Part shown: positions 56,205 through 63,986 of the stretch, piece after piece
How positions within the stretch are numbered: position 1 is the first letter of the stretch
Layout of the letters: each line of letters starts with the position of its first letter
Assembly: GCA_013314735.1 (NCBI GenBank)
Contig: JABUFD010000004.1
Span: 62,001 to 126,000, forward strand
Source: Anaerolineae bacterium
Lineage (GTDB): Bacteria; Chloroflexota; Anaerolineae; Anaerolineales; Anaerolineaceae
Length of the DNA stretch: 64,000 nt
Direction of reading: 5' to 3'
Translations under genes and position numbers: made by a program
Notes under the pieces: model-generated
Databases searched by the model: none
What the model was told of the DNA's origin: nothing
The model's input: the letters and a program-made list of their open reading frames with translations, nothing else

Positions 56205-57719
56205 ATGCCAGCCATTCTCGAACCACTTTTCCAGATTCACCCGGAGGACTCCGTTGCCATTACGTTGGTCGACCTGTACCCGGGCATGCAGGTCAGCCAT
56301 GCGGGAAAAACCTATACCATTCAGGCTCACATTCCAACCGGCCACAAACTGGCGCTACATGATATACCCGCTGGTGAAACGGTCGTTCGCTACGGTTATG
56401 GCATAGGAACGGCACTCACACCAATCAGCGCCGGGGATTGGGTGCACACCCACAATCTTGTGATCCAGAACTTTGAGCGCGATTTCGCAGTCAAAGGCGT
56501 GCGGCCTGCAGAAAAAAACCAGCGCAAGGGAGATCAAGCCTTCTTTGATGGATACTTACGGCCGGACGGCCGTGTGGGTACCCGCAATTACGTGGCGATC
56601 CTCTCCACCGTCAATTGTGTCAACCCGGTGGTGCGGCACATCCAGCGTTCCGTCATCAATGATGTGCTGCAGCGCTATCCCAACGTGGATGGTGTACTCG
56701 CCATCACCCATGACTCTGGCTGCTCCATTCCTACCGATGGGCTGGATCATGAGAACCTGCGGCGGGTGCTGTCGAACATTGCCGCGCATCCCAATCTTGG
56801 CGGCTGCCTGGCAATCGGGCTGGGGTGCGAGGTGAACCAGATGGAAGAAACCTTCACCAGCAAAGGCGTTCCATTCCTTTCAGTCCAGGCGGAGGGCGGT
56901 ACGCCGGCTACGGTAAAAACAGCTTGCCAGATACTGGAAGCGCTGCTGGAAACCGCCAACAACAATCAACGAACACCACAGCCGCTTGCCAGCTTGCGGA
57001 TTGCGCTGCAATGCGGTGGGAGCGATGCTTTTTCAGGCATCACCGGCAATCCCCTGCTGGGGGAAGTGTCAGACCGGATTTGCGCTGAAAATGGCAGTGT
57101 AGTGATTGCAGAAACCACCGAAATTTTCGGCGCGGAACACCTGCTGCTGCAGCGTGCTGAAAACCCCCGGGTCGCCGAGAAACTGCGCGCCATCCTCTCC
57201 TGGTGGCAGGATTACTCCAAACGGTTGGGGGTCACAGTCGATAATAACCCCTCTCCCGGCAACAAAGCCGGTGGGCTGACGACAATCTTCGAAAAATCAC
57301 TCGGCGCCATCAGCAAATGCGGTACCACTCCGCTGCGGGATGTGCTGGAATATGGCGAAATCTCGCATGCCAGCGGTGTGGGATTTATGGACTCACCAGG
57401 CAATGATGCCGTATCACTCACCGGGCAGTTGGCGGCAGGCTGCAACTTGGTTCTATTTACCACCGGCCGCGGTACCACCTACGCCCCGGGATTGGCGCCC
57501 TGCCTGAAGGTCGCAACCACAAGCGCCATATTTGAACACATGCGCACCGACATGGATATTAACGCGGGAAATCTGCTAGAGGGACAAAGCCTACGGGAAG
57601 CAGGCGATGCCCTCCTCGCAACGATCATTGCCACAGCATCCGGCCAAATGACCAAAAGTGAAACCTTCGCAGATGCCCAGGTGGAACTGGTCCCGTGGCG
57701 GCGCGGCGCAATCGTTTAA
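56205..57719 (+). CDS. UxaA-family altronate (or related sugar-acid) dehydratase
   Basis: A 504-residue lyase of the UxaA/GarD family. The N-terminal SAF-like domain (about residues 10-95) is fused to the C-terminal catalytic domain, as in full-length altronate dehydratase. Family blocks are GYLRPDGRVGTRNY, THDSGCSIP, GCEVNQ, ALQCGGSDAFSGITGNP and the C-terminal TTGRGTTYAP. It removes water from D-altronate or a similar aldonate to give a 2-keto-3-deoxy sugar acid. The exact substrate is not fixed. The ATG at 56205 (AGGAG 8 bases upstream) is preferred to 56187. It is divergent from the MFS gene, and the stop overlaps the convergent lysC stop by 4 bases. Confidence 0.88.
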   Translation: MPAILEPLFQIHPEDSVAITLVDLYPGMQVSHAGKTYTIQAHIPTGHKLALHDIPAGETVVRYGYGIGTALTPISAGDWVHTHNLVIQNFERDFAVKGVRPAEKNQRKGDQAFFDGYLRPDGRVGTRNYVAILSTVNCVNPVVRHIQRSVINDVLQRYPNVDGVLAITHDSGCSIPTDGLDHENLRRVLSNIAAHPNLGGCLAIGLGCEVNQMEETFTSKGVPFLSVQAEGGTPATVKTACQILEALLETANNNQRTPQPLASLRIALQCGGSDAFSGITGNPLLGEVSDRICAENGSVVIAETTEIFGAEHLLLQRAENPRVAEKLRAILSWWQDYSKRLGVTVDNNPSPGNKAGGLTTIFEKSLGAISKCGTTPLRDVLEYGEISHASGVGFMDSPGNDAVSLTGQLAAGCNLVLFTTGRGTTYAPGLAPCLKVATTSAIFEHMRTDMDINAGNLLEGQSLREAGDALLATIIATASGQMTKSETFADAQVELVPWRRGAIV

Positions 57720-59146
57720 TCATCTCCGTTCAGAGGCTGTGTCAGGTGATGCAGGGCAGCCACGGTTGCCTCCATATCTGCCACACTGACCACAATGCTG
57801 ATACTGACCTCGGATGAACCATGTGCTATTGCCAGCACATTCACCTGGGCCTCAGCCATGGCTCCAAACATTTTCCCCGCCACGCCCAGGCGTTGGCGCA
57901 TCCCCGGGCACACAGCTGTAACAATCACCACTTCCTCGGTGGCCCACACCCGGTCGATGTTGCGGTCCATGATTTCCTGGCGCATTTCGTGTTCCAGCAC
58001 CTTTAACACCTGCCGGGTATACTCCATCGGCACCGCGAAGGTAATCGATTGCTCTGATGAAGCCTCTGTAATCAGCGGAACCGTTGCCCCGGTGTTGGCC
58101 ACCGTGCTGAAGATGCGCGCAGCCACCCCTGGCACACCCAGCATTCCGCGCCCTTCCAGCGTTACCAGTTGTACACCACGGATGGCGGTTACCGCCTTGA
58201 TGATCCCCTCACCCGGGAGTGCCTCATGGTCAGCCGTCAGGCAGGTACCGGGATGCGATGGGTTGAAGGTGTTCAGTACCCGCAGTTGAATATCTGCCTC
58301 AATCACCGGGCGGATGGTTTTGGGGTGAAGCACCTTGGCGCCAAAATACGCCAGTTCCGCCACCTCGCGGTAAGAAAGTGAAGTGATCGTACGCGCATCC
58401 CGCGCCAGGCGCGGATCGGCCGTCATCACCCCATCCACATCGGTCCAGATCCACACTTCTCCCGCTTCCAGTGCCACACCCAACAAAGCGGCGGAATAGT
58501 CACTCCCGCCGCGTCCCAAAGTAGTGGTAACACCGTCGGCGGTCGCGCCGATGAATCCGGTTACCACCGGCAATATCTGCCCGGCGAACAGCGGCCCAAG
58601 CATCTGCCGGGTTTGCAGAACCGAGAGCGACATATCCGGCACAGCGGCCTGGTAGTGATCATTGGTGATGATCAATTGGGTCGCATCAACAGCAGCCGCC
58701 GGGATACCCGCGTCCGTCAGGGCGGCAGCCAGCACCCGCACCGCCAGCCGTTCTCCCAGCGCTGCCACGGCATCCAGCGCGCGCGGCGTCGCTTCTCCCA
58801 GGACCAGGATGGCATGCCCAAGGTTGACAAACTCCTCGATCAAAGCATTGATCTCCAGCCAGGCCGCACTGCGCCGTTGGCTATCCTGCACCAGCTGGTC
58901 CACAGCTTCTCGATGGCGGCGGATCAACATCTGCCAGGTTTCATTCAAGGTCGTATCCACCCCCCGGGCAGCATCCACCGCACTGGCCAGCAGGGCACTG
59001 GTGACGCCGGCAAACGCCGAACTGACAATCACTACCTCGCGCCACTCCTTCACAGCAGAAGAGGCAATCCCAATCACCTGCCGGATCGCCTCAATACTCC
59101 CCACTGAAGTACCACCAAATTTCATGATCAATGTTGATTGTTTCAT
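57716..59146 (-). CDS. lysC: Aspartate kinase
   Basis: A 476-residue aspartokinase making L-4-aspartyl phosphate from aspartate and ATP, the first step to Lys, Thr and Met. The kinase signature MKFGGTSVGS is at the start, followed later by GRGGSDYSAALLG and the C-terminal tandem ACT domains (from about 330) for feedback by end products. The ATG at 59146 is preferred; a TTG at 59173 would overlap the upstream gene. It lies 20 bases after the metB-like stop and should be controlled by the same leader RNA. It is monofunctional (no homoserine dehydrogenase fusion). Confidence 0.95.
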   Translation of the reverse strand: MKQSTLIMKFGGTSVGSIEAIRQVIGIASSAVKEWREVVIVSSAFAGVTSALLASAVDAARGVDTTLNETWQMLIRRHREAVDQLVQDSQRRSAAWLEINALIEEFVNLGHAILVLGEATPRALDAVAALGERLAVRVLAAALTDAGIPAAAVDATQLIITNDHYQAAVPDMSLSVLQTRQMLGPLFAGQILPVVTGFIGATADGVTTTLGRGGSDYSAALLGVALEAGEVWIWTDVDGVMTADPRLARDARTITSLSYREVAELAYFGAKVLHPKTIRPVIEADIQLRVLNTFNPSHPGTCLTADHEALPGEGIIKAVTAIRGVQLVTLEGRGMLGVPGVAARIFSTVANTGATVPLITEASSEQSITFAVPMEYTRQVLKVLEHEMRQEIMDRNIDRVWATEEVVIVTAVCPGMRQRLGVAGKMFGAMAEAQVNVLAIAHGSSEVSISIVVSVADMEATVAALHHLTQPLNGDD

Positions 59147-59165
59147 TTTCCACCGCCCAGCCGTT

Positions 59166-60377
59166 TCATCCAACCGCCGCTTTCAGCGCCTGGTCAATAT
59201 CCGCAATGATGTCCCCGACATCTTCAATCCCCACCGCGTAACGCACCAGGTTATCCACCACTCCCAATGCTTTCCGCTCCTCCGGCGCCACGTTGGCGTA
59301 CGACATCAAGGCCGGTTGGGTTGCCAACGATTCCACCGCCCCCAATGAAGGTGTCAGGTATGGGATTTTTAACTGGTCAAGGAAGGTAGAAGTCGCGGTG
59401 AAGTCGCCTTTCACCGTAAAACTGACCACCCCGCCGAATCCGGACATCTGCCGCTGCGCGGTGGCATGATCCTGGTGGTCGGGGCAGCCCGGATACCATA
59501 CCTGTTCCACAGCAGGATGGCCGCGGAGGAAATCTGCCAGACGTTGCCCGTTGCGGTTTTGTTGGCCCACACGCAAACCAAGCGTCTTGATCCCGCGCAG
59601 CAGCAGAAAAGCGCTTTGCGGATCAAGGATCGGTCCCATCGTGAATACCATATCGCGGATACGTGAAATCAGTGCTGTGGAACCGGCGGCTATCCCTGCC
59701 AGCAAGTCATTGTGACCACCCAGGTACTTGGTGGCGGAATGCAGCACAAGATCCACCCCCCATTCTGTCGGGCGCAGGTTGACCGGGGTGGCAAAAGTGG
59801 CATCCAGCATGGTAATCGCGCCACACACCCGTGCGGCAGCACACCATTGCGCCAGGTCAAGCACCCGCAGGTAGGGGTTGGTCGGCGTTTCTGAGAAGAA
59901 TACCCGTGTGGCAGGTGTCACCGCCCTGCGCAGGGCATCAAAATCGTTGATCGGCACCACACTGGCGGTCACCCCAAACCGTGCCAGGATCGTCAACACA
60001 AATTCACGTGTGCGCCGGTAGCAGTCATCCGTCAGAATGACATGATCCCCCTGTTTCAGGAAAGTGAGCAGAGCGGTAGAAATGGCCGCCATTCCGGACG
60101 AAAACGCGACAGCATCTTCGGTGCCCTCCAATGCAGCCATGCGCTCCTCCACAACCCTAACCGTGGGATTTCCATAACGGCCGTATTCAACCCGGCCGCC
60201 GGTATCGCCAGCAGCACGCGCTTCCATAAAAGACACAATATCCGCTGTATTTTCAAACGCAAAATTGGAACTTTGAACAATTGGATCAACCACACTATGG
60301 TAGGCTCTCTGGCGCTGTTCACCAGCATGTACTGATGCGCTTAAGCGGTTATTCCTCTGGCCTGAAACCTGATCCAT
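59166..60377 (-). CDS. Cys/Met-metabolism PLP enzyme (trans-sulfuration family)
   Basis: A 403-residue enzyme of the cystathionine gamma-synthase / O-acetylhomoserine sulfhydrylase / gamma-lyase family. The PLP lysine is in HSATKYLGGHND; other family blocks are YGRYGNPTVRVVEERMAALEG, SSGMAAIST and ETPTNPYLRVLD. The exact reaction cannot be set from sequence, but co-transcription with aspartokinase favours a biosynthetic role in making cystathionine or homocysteine (MetB/MetY-like). AAGGAG and GTGAGG precede the ATG at 60377. A terminator-bearing leader of about 210 bases is upstream. Confidence 0.92.
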   Translation of the reverse strand: MDQVSGQRNNRLSASVHAGEQRQRAYHSVVDPIVQSSNFAFENTADIVSFMEARAAGDTGGRVEYGRYGNPTVRVVEERMAALEGTEDAVAFSSGMAAISTALLTFLKQGDHVILTDDCYRRTREFVLTILARFGVTASVVPINDFDALRRAVTPATRVFFSETPTNPYLRVLDLAQWCAAARVCGAITMLDATFATPVNLRPTEWGVDLVLHSATKYLGGHNDLLAGIAAGSTALISRIRDMVFTMGPILDPQSAFLLLRGIKTLGLRVGQQNRNGQRLADFLRGHPAVEQVWYPGCPDHQDHATAQRQMSGFGGVVSFTVKGDFTATSTFLDQLKIPYLTPSLGAVESLATQPALMSYANVAPEERKALGVVDNLVRYAVGIEDVGDIIADIDQALKAAVG

Positions 60378-60393
60378 ACCTCACACTCCTTGG

Positions 60394-60434
60394 TTTAAAA
60401 AACAAAGGGCAGATTCCGAAACGGCCTGCCCTGC
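60394..60434 (-). promoter_or_regulatory. Leader terminator/attenuator ahead of the metB-like gene
   Basis: On the minus strand GGGCAG (60431-60426) pairs with CTGCCC (60412-60407), with inner CCG/CGG, followed by TTTGTTTTTT. It stands just before the ribosome-binding site. GCAGGGC (60434-60428), which overlaps its 5' arm, can instead pair with GCCCTGC at 60533-60527 in the leader, which would destroy the terminator. A separate perfect hairpin (60508-60527, CCCCATGC/GCATGGGG) lies between. Confidence 0.78.
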
Positions 60435-60478
60435 TGGAAACCCATTGATTAATGCGAAAAAGCTACACTTGTCCTCGT

Positions 60479-60586
60479 CTACTTTTGCCAGGCCGTCAAC
60501 AACTTCACCCCATGCGACCGCATGGGGCAGGGCATCAACATCGTGATGGCTGGTGAGACCGGACAACCTGGATTGGAGCTTTGCAT
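60479..60586 (-). CDS. Putative leaderless 35-codon leader peptide with Met and Cys codons
   Basis: Minus-strand ATG at 60586, stop TAG at 60479-60481. The predicted transcription start is at or within one base of this ATG, so it would be translated without a leader. The peptide has Cys at 8 and 20 and Met at 16, 18 and 22 (ITMLMPCPMR); the Met codons sit at the edge of the pairing segment 60533-60527. Position, size and content are those of a ribosome-sensing leader for sulfur amino-acid genes. A metabolite-binding RNA that happens to contain this ORF is the alternative, but no known SAM, T-box or cobalamin motif is recognisable. Confidence 0.5.
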   Translation of the reverse strand: MQSSNPGCPVSPAITMLMPCPMRSHGVKLLTAWQK

Positions 60587-60593
60587 GGCCTTC

Positions 60594-60622
60594 AGTTTAC
60601 ATTGGTTACAGCAGAGCGTCAA
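60594..60622 (-). promoter_or_regulatory. Promoter of the metB-lysC leader
   Basis: On the minus strand TTGACG (60617-60622) and TAAACT (60594-60599) are 17 bases apart. The expected start is near 60587. The remaining 120 bases up to hom on the other strand contain a TAGAAT box (about 60693) but no clear plus-strand promoter. Confidence 0.68.
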
Positions 60623-60743: not shown

Positions 60744-61784
60744 ATGAAAAATATCGCAGTTTTGGGTCCCGGCCAGGTGGGGCAGGCATTACTGTTGCAG
60801 TTGTTGGAACATCTGGCGAAAGATGATACCATCCAGCTGACTGCCGTGGCCGACAGCACCGGATTATTGCTCGACATGAACGGCCTGGCTCCTTCCCTCA
60901 TCCGACAGGTGATCACGACCAAATCACAACACCTGCCGTTACACACCATGGAAGGCTGTGCCTGCCTCGATTTACTGCCGCAGTGTTTTGGCAACGATAC
61001 GGTGTTGGTGGATACCTCTGCAGCAGAGACAACGATTGACATCCTGCTCGCTGGATTGGATGCCGGATGCGCGGTGGCAATGGCAAACAAAAAAAACCTG
61101 ACCCAGGCCTGGGAACGCAGCGCCCCATTTTTCAACAATCAACGGGTGCGTTTTGAGTCCACGGTTTGTGCTGCTGTGCCTGTGATGAGTGCGATCTCGC
61201 GCCTGGTGAAAGCCAATGACACTGTACAGGAAATTCAGGGCTCACTCAGTGGGACTTTGGGTTTCATATGTGCTCAATTTGACATGGAGATTCCCTATAG
61301 CGAAGCTGTGCTCAGCGCACACCAGTTGGGCTTCACCGAACCCGACCCACGCGATGACCTGGGGGGGATCGATGTCGGCCGCAAAGCACTGATCCTCGCA
61401 CGCGCCAACGGCTGGCCGCTGGAAATGAAAGACATTCGCATCGAACCGATGTACTCTGACGACCTGGCGCGCCTTTCACCCCCTGAGTTCCTGGAGCAAT
61501 GCAACAATATGGATGAAATCTTCACAATGCGGCAGGAACAAGCCCGGGCGGAAGGCAAAGTGCTGCGCTATATTGCCCACGTGAATCCGCACGGCGGGGA
61601 AGCCCGACTGATTGCCGTACCTGCGCAAAGCGAATTTGGCAGCCTGCGGGGCAGCGGTAACCGGGTGGTGATTCACAGCCGTCATCATCGTGAGAATCCA
61701 CTGGTCATCAGTGGTTCGGGCGCAGGCGCCGCCCTGACAGCATCGGGCGTGCTGGCTGACATTCGTGAATTGATCAATTTGTAG
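60744..61784 (+). CDS. hom: Homoserine dehydrogenase
   Basis: A 346-residue NAD(P)-dependent enzyme reducing aspartate semialdehyde to homoserine. The N-terminal nucleotide loop is GPGQVG (residues 8-13). The catalytic-domain blocks are ANKKNLTQA (dinucleotide and Lys), ESTVCAAVPV, GSLSGTLGF and EPDPRDDLGGIDVGRKALILAR with the catalytic Asp and Lys. There is no C-terminal ACT domain, so it may not be feedback-regulated through that route. It is divergent from the metB-lysC arm and is followed after 10 bases by asd. Confidence 0.94.
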   Translation: MKNIAVLGPGQVGQALLLQLLEHLAKDDTIQLTAVADSTGLLLDMNGLAPSLIRQVITTKSQHLPLHTMEGCACLDLLPQCFGNDTVLVDTSAAETTIDILLAGLDAGCAVAMANKKNLTQAWERSAPFFNNQRVRFESTVCAAVPVMSAISRLVKANDTVQEIQGSLSGTLGFICAQFDMEIPYSEAVLSAHQLGFTEPDPRDDLGGIDVGRKALILARANGWPLEMKDIRIEPMYSDDLARLSPPEFLEQCNNMDEIFTMRQEQARAEGKVLRYIAHVNPHGGEARLIAVPAQSEFGSLRGSGNRVVIHSRHHRENPLVISGSGAGAALTASGVLADIRELINL

Positions 61785-61794
61785 GATTGTAGCC

Positions 61795-62847
61795 ATGAAG
61801 AAAATTCCTGTCGGCATCCTTGGCGCTACCGGCGTGGTCGGACAGCGATTCGCGCAATTGCTGGATAATCATCCCTGGTTTGAAGTGACTGTGCTCACCG
61901 GTTCAGAACGAAATGCTGGAAAGCCATATGGCGAAACCTGCAACTGGCGCATCCCCGGCGACCCACCAGCGGCAATGAGCAGCCTGCCAGTATTGCCCAC
62001 CACAGCGGATCTGCCGGTAAAACTGGTTTTTTCAGCCCTTCCTTCCCCAATCGCACGGGAGTGGGAACCGCGCCTGGCCCAGGCTGGTTTGGCGGTGTGT
62101 TCCAATGCTGCTGCGTTCCGCAATGAGCCGGATGTACCACTCATCATCCCCGAGGTCAATGCCGAACACATTGACCTGATCCCCCAACAGCAGGAACGCC
62201 TTGGGTGGAAAGGATTCATCGTAACCAGCCCCAACTGCACCACCACCACGGCAGTCATGCCCCTCAAGCCGCTGCATGACGCTTACCACATCGAACAGGT
62301 GTTCATCACCAGTTTGCAGGCGTTTTCCGGCGCCGGATATCCGGGCCTGTCCGCCCTGGATATCCAGGACAATGTGATTCCCTACATCGCCGGCGAAGAG
62401 GAGAAGATGGAACTGGAAACCCGCATCCTCTTGAGCAAATATGATCCTATGCGGCAGCTGCCGGATGAAACCATACAGGTCAGTGCCCAGGCCAACCGCG
62501 TACCGGTGATCGATGGCCATACGGTGTGCCTTTCAGTCAAATTCCGGGAAAAACCAGACATTGCCGCCATCAGCGGTTTATTGACAGGGTACCGCGGTGC
62601 GGAGATCGTGCGCCAACTGCCCAGTGCCCCTGTGCATCCGATCATCGTTCGCGACGAAATCGACCGCCCCCAACCACGCCGTGACCGCGATACCGATCAC
62701 GGTATGGCTGCCACTGTCGGACGCATCCGACCCTGCCCGATCCTCGACCTGCGGTTTGTCAGCGTTATCCATAATGCCATCCGCGGCGCCGCCGGCGGTG
62801 CAATTCTAAATGCAGAACTGCTTGCTGCCAGAGGCTACCTGGAATGA
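61795..62847 (+). CDS. asd: Aspartate-semialdehyde dehydrogenase (archaeal/yeast-type)
   Basis: A 350-residue enzyme reducing aspartyl phosphate to aspartate semialdehyde with NADPH. The nucleotide loop is GATGVVGQRF (residues 9-18). The active-site Cys lies in TSPNCTTT (about 144), and the conserved SAQANRVPVIDGHT block contains a catalytic His near residue 240. The PNCTTT form is that of the archaeal/fungal branch, not the usual bacterial NCST type. It joins lysC and hom into a complete aspartate-to-homoserine path. The stop overlaps the next gene (ATGA). Confidence 0.95.
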   Translation: MKKIPVGILGATGVVGQRFAQLLDNHPWFEVTVLTGSERNAGKPYGETCNWRIPGDPPAAMSSLPVLPTTADLPVKLVFSALPSPIAREWEPRLAQAGLAVCSNAAAFRNEPDVPLIIPEVNAEHIDLIPQQQERLGWKGFIVTSPNCTTTTAVMPLKPLHDAYHIEQVFITSLQAFSGAGYPGLSALDIQDNVIPYIAGEEEKMELETRILLSKYDPMRQLPDETIQVSAQANRVPVIDGHTVCLSVKFREKPDIAAISGLLTGYRGAEIVRQLPSAPVHPIIVRDEIDRPQPRRDRDTDHGMAATVGRIRPCPILDLRFVSVIHNAIRGAAGGAILNAELLAARGYLE

Positions 62848-63986
62848 CGGGGCGAGCCTGGCAAATCTATGGGACCGCATCGGTGCAGGATATCCTCGGT
62901 GACCATGTCGTATTCCGCAATCTCCAACCGATGGATGCTTCCCTGCCAGGCCTACCCATGCTGCGCGATGATCTGGGCATTGCACCCGGCGATACACCCC
63001 GCAAGACAACTCTCGACTATGCGAAGGTGATTCACCGTATCCTGCTAGCAGCCCGTCCAGGCGGCTTGAAGCAGATAGTCTACATTGGCGATACCCTTTT
63101 CAACGACGGGAGTGCGTTTCGCAACCTGGTCGCGGTTACTGGTTGGGATGCCACCGCGCTGATCACGGCAGAGAACACCGCCAAACCCGCGACCCTGACC
63201 TGGCACCCCACCCCGGGCAGCATCCAGCGACTGTTCACAGCCAACCGGTGGGGATTGGTGTCTGAGTTTCAACGCATCCTCGCACATCAGGGCTTCGCTA
63301 TCGACGAAACGACCGCGGTGGTGGTTGACCTCGATAAAACCCTCCTTGGCGCGCGCGGCCGCAATGACCGGGTGATCGATGCCGCCCGCCTGCAGGCAGC
63401 CTATGCCACTGCGGAAGAAACCTTGCCTGACTTCGACCCGGCAAAATTCGGCACCATATACAACATCCTCAACCAGCCAGCCTGGCATCCCATCACCGCG
63501 GATAACCAGGACTTTCTAGTATATATTTGCCTGCTGGTATATGGCGGCTTCCCGCCGCTGGATGTACTCCTGCGGGAAAAAGAGAACCGCCGCATCGATA
63601 CCTTTTCATCGTTCGAAACCTACATCGATCCACACCTCGATCACCTTCCGCCGCGCCTGCGTACGATGCACGCAGAGTTCCAGAAATGCCTCGTTGCCGG
63701 TGATCCCACGCCATTTAAACGTTTCCGGCAGAATGAATACCACAATACCATTCATGCCATGCAATCCGGTCTTTCGGTCACGAACCCGGATCGACTGCTG
63801 GCAGATTCCATCACAATCACAGCCGAGGTCAAGGCATTTGTCGATGCCTGCCTGGCACAGGGTGCATTGTTATTTGCCATCTCCGACAAACCCGACGAAG
63901 CCTCCCTGCCCACTGCGGAAGAAGCTGCCCGGGGTTCCCTGCCGCTGCACAGGACCAAAGCTGTGGTGGTGGGTCGGGCAATCTGA
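62844..63986 (+). CDS. HAD-like protein of unknown function in the hom-asd operon
   Basis: A 380-residue soluble protein, translationally coupled to asd (4-base overlap). It carries one HAD motif-I-like block, VVVDLDKTLLG (about residues 154-164), with the D-x-D-x-T form of phosphatases and phosphotransferases. Two other HAD-like blocks, YIGDTLFNDG (about 75-84) and AISDKPDEAS (about 346-355), lie far apart, so the fold may be permuted or carry large insertions. No thrB, thrC or metX gene is in the window, so a role in homoserine metabolism (for example as a phosphatase or phosphotransferase) is possible but not shown. Length exceeds that of typical HAD enzymes. Confidence 0.65.
   Translation: MTGRAWQIYGTASVQDILGDHVVFRNLQPMDASLPGLPMLRDDLGIAPGDTPRKTTLDYAKVIHRILLAARPGGLKQIVYIGDTLFNDGSAFRNLVAVTGWDATALITAENTAKPATLTWHPTPGSIQRLFTANRWGLVSEFQRILAHQGFAIDETTAVVVDLDKTLLGARGRNDRVIDAARLQAAYATAEETLPDFDPAKFGTIYNILNQPAWHPITADNQDFLVYICLLVYGGFPPLDVLLREKENRRIDTFSSFETYIDPHLDHLPPRLRTMHAEFQKCLVAGDPTPFKRFRQNEYHNTIHAMQSGLSVTNPDRLLADSITITAEVKAFVDACLAQGALLFAISDKPDEASLPTAEEAARGSLPLHRTKAVVVGRAI

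Follow-up and report, generated by a model that had tools for sequence, protein, structure and literature searches.

A candidate methionine-responsive leader-peptide attenuator ahead of metB and lysC in an Anaerolineae bacterium and its relatives

Results

A leader ORF, a terminator and methionine-branch genes

The region at 60397–60622 on the minus strand of the window (the whole 64,000-nucleotide stretch of an Anaerolineae bacterium genome analysed here) carries a sigma-70-type promoter, a 35-codon ORF and a terminator, ahead of a metB-like gene followed by lysC. We read it, with a probability of roughly 80%, as a ribosome-mediated transcription attenuator that responds to methionine. An attenuator for methionine-branch genes had been proposed here from the letters of the window (the sequence-only reading); the relatives strongly support that proposal, and they correct the position of its antiterminator. 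The features of the locus, in window coordinates, are as follows.

60617–60622, minus strand: −35 box TTGACG, from a promoter scan; relatives have TTGACN-17-TAAACT/TATAAT in the same place
60594–60599, minus strand: −10 box TAAACT, separated from the −35 box by a 17-nt spacer and lying 7 nt ahead of the leader ATG
60479–60586, minus strand: leader peptide ORF MQSSNPGCPVSPAITMLMPCPMRSHGVKLLTAWQK, 35 codons, with ATG at 60586–60584 and stop at 60481–60479
60552–60564, minus strand: protector segment, predicted to pair with the antiterminator segment when the ribosome is absent
60521–60541, minus strand: Met codons 16 (60541–60539), 18 (60535–60533) and 22 (60523–60521), putative regulatory codons
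60508–60527, minus strand: perfect 8-bp hairpin CCCCATGCGGTCGCATGGGG, spanning Met codon 22, specific to the window
60489–60497, minus strand: putative antiterminator 5' segment GACGGCCTG, a 9-bp match to 60428–60420
60420–60428, minus strand: putative antiterminator 3' segment CAGGCCGTT, overlapping the terminator 5' arm
60397–60431, minus strand: intrinsic terminator GGGCAG-GCCGTTTCGGAAT-CTGCCC, stem 60431–60407, from folding
60406–60397, minus strand: terminator U-run TTTGTTTTTT, directly ahead of the ribosome-binding site of the metB-like gene
60386–60390, minus strand: ribosome-binding site AGGAG of the metB-like gene, from the sequence
59166–60377, minus strand: metB-like gene for a Cys/Met metabolism PLP enzyme, 403 aa, ATG at 60377 (PF01053, E 1e-131)
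57716–59173, minus strand: lysC, aspartate kinase, overlapping the end of metB
60744–61784, plus strand: hom, homoserine dehydrogenase, divergent from metB-lysC
61795–62847, plus strand: asd, aspartate-semialdehyde dehydrogenase, on the divergent side beyond hom

The promoter, the ORF with its Met codons and its Cys codons 8 and 20, the hairpin, the terminator and the ribosome-binding site all lie on the minus strand where the sequence-only reading had placed them. The promoter scan, for which the expectation is 0.5 sites per region, recovers the site in the window leader, and the spacing from −10 box to ATG is nearly identical in three relatives (L014, L017 and L146). From the promoter spacing, the transcript is predicted to start at the leader ATG or next to it. 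The two Cys codons are separate and non-contiguous. No counterpart of the hairpin over Met codon 22 was noticed in the relatives; it adds approximately its own size to the distance between Met codon 18 and the antiterminator segment.

The genes at the locus belong to the aspartate/methionine branch, with the metB-like gene and aspartate kinase on one side and hom and asd divergent from them. The gene orders metB-lysC and metB-lysC-asd recur in relatives (L168 and L169). No NCBIfam model reaches its cut-off on the metB-like product; those for cystathionine gamma-synthase and methionine gamma-lyase score it below theirs. Behind asd, a 380-aa ORF (62844–63986, plus strand) has a HAD-like DLDKTLLG motif and no match in Pfam or NCBIfam.

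The window leader taken alone

On its own the window supplies weak single-locus evidence, and it is sequence comparison with the relatives that makes the case strong. The overall folding of the leader is not exceptional against shuffles (z −0.64), and the terminator is not flagged by a strict consensus scan because of its internal loop. Among 400-nt stretches, 7% of shuffled and 15% of random ones contain a short ORF with three Met per 12 residues; five Met per 12 residues were reached in none of 1000 shuffles. With three Met, a duplex p of 0.14 and a shuffle fraction of 0.045 by itself, the window leader is among the weakest. An Rfam covariance search of the window gives no match to any family, SAM-I (RF00162) included, at gathering scores. 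For the leader region, a covariance-model search, which the sequence-only reading had put forward as a way of recognizing a riboswitch, returns no credible match in Rfam up to E 10, neither SAM-I nor T-box. The window peptide has no match in Pfam, and neither it nor the relatives' peptides have one in NCBIfam.

Similarity to the leader DNA was found in none of 60 relatives because the leader diverges too fast, and sequence identity between the window leader and those of its relatives is low except at the Met codons. The 15-nt segment ATCACGATGTTGATG at the Met core is common to the window and L118 and exceeds every match in 200 shuffles; the 13-nt segment CGATGTTGATGCC is common to the window and L115, L116 and L123, and exceeds every match in 200 shuffles for each. 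A profile made from five same-family leaders of one genus, with the window excluded, places the window ORF first among 1770 frames (E 0.034), and one made from 12 family leaders places it second among 1770 (E 1). The leaders of one genus in the same family (L114–L116, L118 and L123) also contain no more than three or four internal Met; they share the MLM core, and their switch elements are intact. The low Met count of the window is therefore not odd for its family. The kinship of the window leader with those of its relatives is judged from its position, promoter spacing and Met core.

Met-rich leaders and SAM-I alternate ahead of metB orthologues

We fetched 73 loci of metB orthologues, which share 57–60% identity in the window's family and 50–58% in the order. 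A Met-rich leader ORF and terminator stand ahead of the metB orthologue at 40 of these 73 loci in the order, window included. At about 21 of the 73, as judged from pattern, Rfam and coordinates, SAM-I occupies the same place instead, and the remaining loci have neither element or too little sequence. Met leader and SAM-I were not seen together at any of the 73 orthologue loci. Every one of the 13 further orthologues found in the window's family is preceded by a Met-rich leader ORF.

The relatives' leader ORFs are 29–40 codons long and contain a dense Met run, usually with 5–8 Met per 12 residues, as in MSIQFASAASAVLLIAMGMMMAMVMRRFSRQAALAEGKVI (L004) and MLEAFSPVFLSLLAIVMMMGMMMSGRASVWEALVCLRY (L137). 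A sigma-70-type promoter is often close to the leader ATG; some relatives have a predicted leaderless start, and others have a 5' UTR roomy enough for a ribosome-binding site. By folding, a terminator lies between the leader ORF and the first gene at all 40 loci with a Met-rich ORF, and in most relatives it is strong and located about 20–45 nt past the ORF, followed by the gene. Of four clades compared, three show no change in their Met blocks and the fourth shows two substitutions, whereas the surrounding codons mostly vary. Conservation in the relatives' metB leaders does not extend to Cys; of what had been described as a Met/Cys leader, they bear out the Met half but not the Cys half. At four loci (L113, L117, L120 and L135), tandem units of two Met-rich ORFs, each with a terminator, are arranged in series before the metB orthologue.

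Outside the order, SAM-I is the usual element in the same class, and a Met leader is present in one family (L307 and L308). The terminator of the Met-rich leader before the metB orthologue in L307 and L308 is GGGCTGCC. Four switches between Met leader and SAM-I suffice to explain their distribution on a MetB protein tree (FastTree); leader type is therefore stable within clades, with a few exchanges. Searching 350 genomes of the order with a leader-peptide profile gives 24 matches at E 0.01 or better. All 20 matches with E below 0.002, 13 of which are training sequences, lie directly before a metB orthologue, and the four weaker ones resemble coding DNA read on the wrong strand.

The leader ORF covaries with the terminator arm

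For 40 leaders, we tested how well the sequence following the last of the clustered Met codons pairs with the terminator 5' arm. The antiterminator segment begins a median of 15 nt past the last Met codon, immediately beyond the edge of a ribosome paused at that codon. In 26 of the 40, the distance from the last Met to the leader stop is exactly 15 codons. Duplexes are stronger than those of shuffled ORF segments (combined p 2e-24, a value inflated by relatedness). When arms were swapped among 18 clades, segments paired with their own arm at −18.6 kcal/mol and with another clade's arm at −13.3, with p about 0.0002 in each of 20 draws. The better pairing with own than with swapped arms shows covariation between the ORF segment and the terminator arm, whose sequences differ from clade to clade, as seen in the pairs GGCAGC / GGCTGCC, GTGTGGG / CCCACAC and TTGGGTGG / CCGCCCAA. 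Comparison with relatives, which had been suggested alongside the sequence-only reading, finds both the ORF with its Met codons conserved and the alternative stems covarying.

Before the terminator 3' arm is made, the 5' arm pairs with the ORF segment at a probability above 0.5 in 38 of 40 leaders; the shuffled mean exceeds 0.5 in 19. Equilibrium folding predicts switching at about half of the loci and, at the rest, a terminator that persists even with a stalled ribosome, which means that the model needs kinetic, co-transcriptional folding, as in known attenuators. Equilibrium terminator probability, being positive in about half of the loci, was given up as the sole test in favour of the duplex, swap and co-transcriptional tests. 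No conserved structure besides terminator and antiterminator was seen in the relatives.

Predicted switching in the window and a proposed mechanism

The 7-base match between 60533–60527 and 60434–60428, which had been taken for the antiterminator, is present in the window, but relatives support another helix. Segment 60527–60533 precedes the last Met codon, whereas the relatives' antiterminators come after it, and this segment was rejected in favour of 60489–60497. The window carries the relatives' device, with 60489–60497 predicted to pair with 60420–60428; in the absence of a ribosome, 60489–60497 is predicted to be held by 60552–60564, upstream of the Met codons. The predicted terminator probability is 0.77 for ribosome-free RNA and 0.75 when a ribosome sits at the stop or at Met16, and it drops to 0.01–0.02 with a ribosome at Met18 or Met22. 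The footprint assumed affects these values: the probability is 0.47 at Met18 with the edge 3 nt upstream, and 0.75 at Met22 with the edge 3 nt downstream.

From this anatomy, conservation and covariation we infer translation of the leader, stalling and a methionine response, as follows. Transcription would begin at or beside the leader ATG, and a ribosome would trail RNA polymerase. When Met-tRNA is ample, the ribosome would pass the Met codons to the stop and cover or pass 60489–60497; the terminator at 60431–60407 would then form, and metB-lysC would be off. When charged elongator Met-tRNA is scarce, the ribosome would stall at codons 16–22 and occlude the protector at 60552–60564. The freed 60489–60497 could then pair with 60420–60428 before the terminator 3' arm is made, allowing the polymerase to read through. 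The earlier worry that a ribosome stalled on the Met codons masks the antiterminator is true of 60527–60533 only. Since 60489–60497 is downstream of the Met codons, a stall would expose the antiterminator and favour readthrough, so that low methionine would turn the genes on.

Alternative explanations

The window leader might be a decayed version of the device, in which a weak Met ORF is left, the switch is dead and the terminator is constitutive. Its three Met codons, extra hairpin, longer distance from Met18 to the antiterminator and weak single-locus statistics would all suit such a remnant. Decay is nevertheless unlikely, given that the same-family genus described above has similarly few Met codons together with intact switch elements, and that the window terminator and antiterminator are complementary across 9 bp. 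The signal could also be read by the peptide itself, as a nascent chain that arrests the ribosome upon SAM or Met, with the RNA switch following the arrest; TnaC senses tryptophan and the plant CGS1 MTO1 peptide senses SAM in a parallel manner. Peptides are conserved within clades (for example MMMGMMM.RRASVWEA.VCLR), and several relatives' peptides have a hydrophobic N-terminal half. Across clades, however, the Met run alone is common and the N-terminal half varies freely, the conserved C-terminal residues coincide with the antiterminator, and the window peptide is not hydrophobic. We regard a nascent-chain sensor as quite unlikely.

The leader might instead be a Met or SAM riboswitch of a kind not described before, its ORF being there by coincidence; SAM-I takes up this place in sister clades, and the length of the leader leaves room for an aptamer. 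An aptamer leaves the in-frame Met runs at 40 loci unexplained, though, and with no credible Rfam match at E 10 and only terminator and antiterminator structure conserved, this possibility appears very improbable. The hydrophobic N-terminal halves in several relatives would equally suit a functional small (membrane) protein encoded before the terminator by chance. That the ORF segment covaries with a terminator arm, that the distance from Met run to stop is fixed and that the N-terminus is variable all speak against a small protein, which we consider extremely improbable. The methionine-codon attenuator accounts best for the leader.

Other leaders in the window's genome and in the order

One SAM-I was detected in the window's genome, before metK. 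Matches to ATG runs elsewhere in this genome lack a short ORF with a following U-run terminator; the exception is one 118-residue frame with a U-run. Further matches to the leader profile in this genome are insignificant.

In other genomes, direct inspection shows that metA (homoserine O-succinyltransferase family) has a Met-rich leader in L212, L225 and L226, with MSMDMRWGA in both L225 and L226, and SAM-I in other genomes. In L213, cysK is preceded by a mixed Met and Cys leader, METVFFAKMMMCMCMAML (minus strand, about 540–770 of the reverse complement), and then a terminator; the next gene is metA with SAM-I. A short Cys leader (CMCLRRG, CVCLRRG or CMCICLGQG) is often found at cysK in the order (L255, L257, L260, L273, L280, L281 and L284; also L269, L274 and L275). 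Behind several of these come a conserved GAGGCGGGG, then CCCCGC further downstream, and a U-run; no Rfam match was found there. The cysK Cys leader looks like a candidate cysteine attenuator.

Discussion

Methionine biosynthesis is usually described as being controlled by SAM, through the S box, other SAM riboswitches or MetJ, or by Met T boxes. Our comparison suggests that a whole bacterial order has probably swapped a SAM-sensing riboswitch for a Met-codon attenuator repeatedly, in front of one and the same methionine gene. A single genome would in that case sense SAM at metK (through SAM-I) and Met-tRNA charging for methionine synthesis (through a leader peptide) as separate signals, and some relatives would stack two attenuators in series. 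Methionine would join the amino acids that leader peptides monitor, through a widespread attenuator based on counting Met codons. AUG doubles as the start codon, making internal initiation possible in Met leaders. The clean exchange of SAM-I and Met leader before one orthologous gene amounts to a natural experiment, in which swapped leaders make Met-tRNA sensing and SAM sensing directly testable against each other.

Comparison with known systems

We found no description of the Met-leader family in the open-access papers searched, and no match to it in Rfam or NCBIfam. In Streptomyces lividans TK24, a metL leader was proposed upstream of metNIQ, with no clear terminator (PMC8079986). It too is a short ORF, leaderless there and predicted to be so in the window, with several Met codons ahead of methionine genes, but it precedes a transporter operon, its Met and Cys are scattered and it has no comparative support (PMC8079986); the leaders here precede biosynthetic genes, with Met runs, a terminator and a covarying antiterminator, in dozens of genomes. 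Mycobacterial attenuators made of leaderless polycysteine sORFs (Canestrari et al. 2020), as they are presented in the citing paper (PMC9031893), likewise combine a leaderless start, predicted for the window leader, with sulfur-amino-acid codons ahead of sulfur genes; they use Cys rather than Met codons, and the window leader has no contiguous Cys codons. In Actinobacteria, an intrinsic terminator is not obvious in the related cys leaders, and a survey of that group detected no conserved RNA-level control ahead of methionine operons (PMC1262725).

In sister clades, the metB orthologue has SAM-I (the S box, RF00162) where the leaders described here lie. SAM-I differs in that its aptamer senses SAM directly, and the window leader has no match to it. 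For other genes, riboswitches or T boxes are known to have been exchanged with leader peptides (PMC2965389). Leader-peptide attenuation is classical, in the trp, his, thr, ilv, leu and phe operons of Proteobacteria and Actinobacteria (PMC1183508). The classical attenuators share with the present leaders an ORF rich in codons for the product, the protector, antiterminator and terminator arrangement, and readthrough upon stalling, which is predicted here (PMC1183508). Here, by comparison, the amino acid would be methionine, with a single codon that doubles as the start codon; many leaders are near-leaderless, and the antiterminator segment lies inside the ORF at a fixed distance past the Met run.
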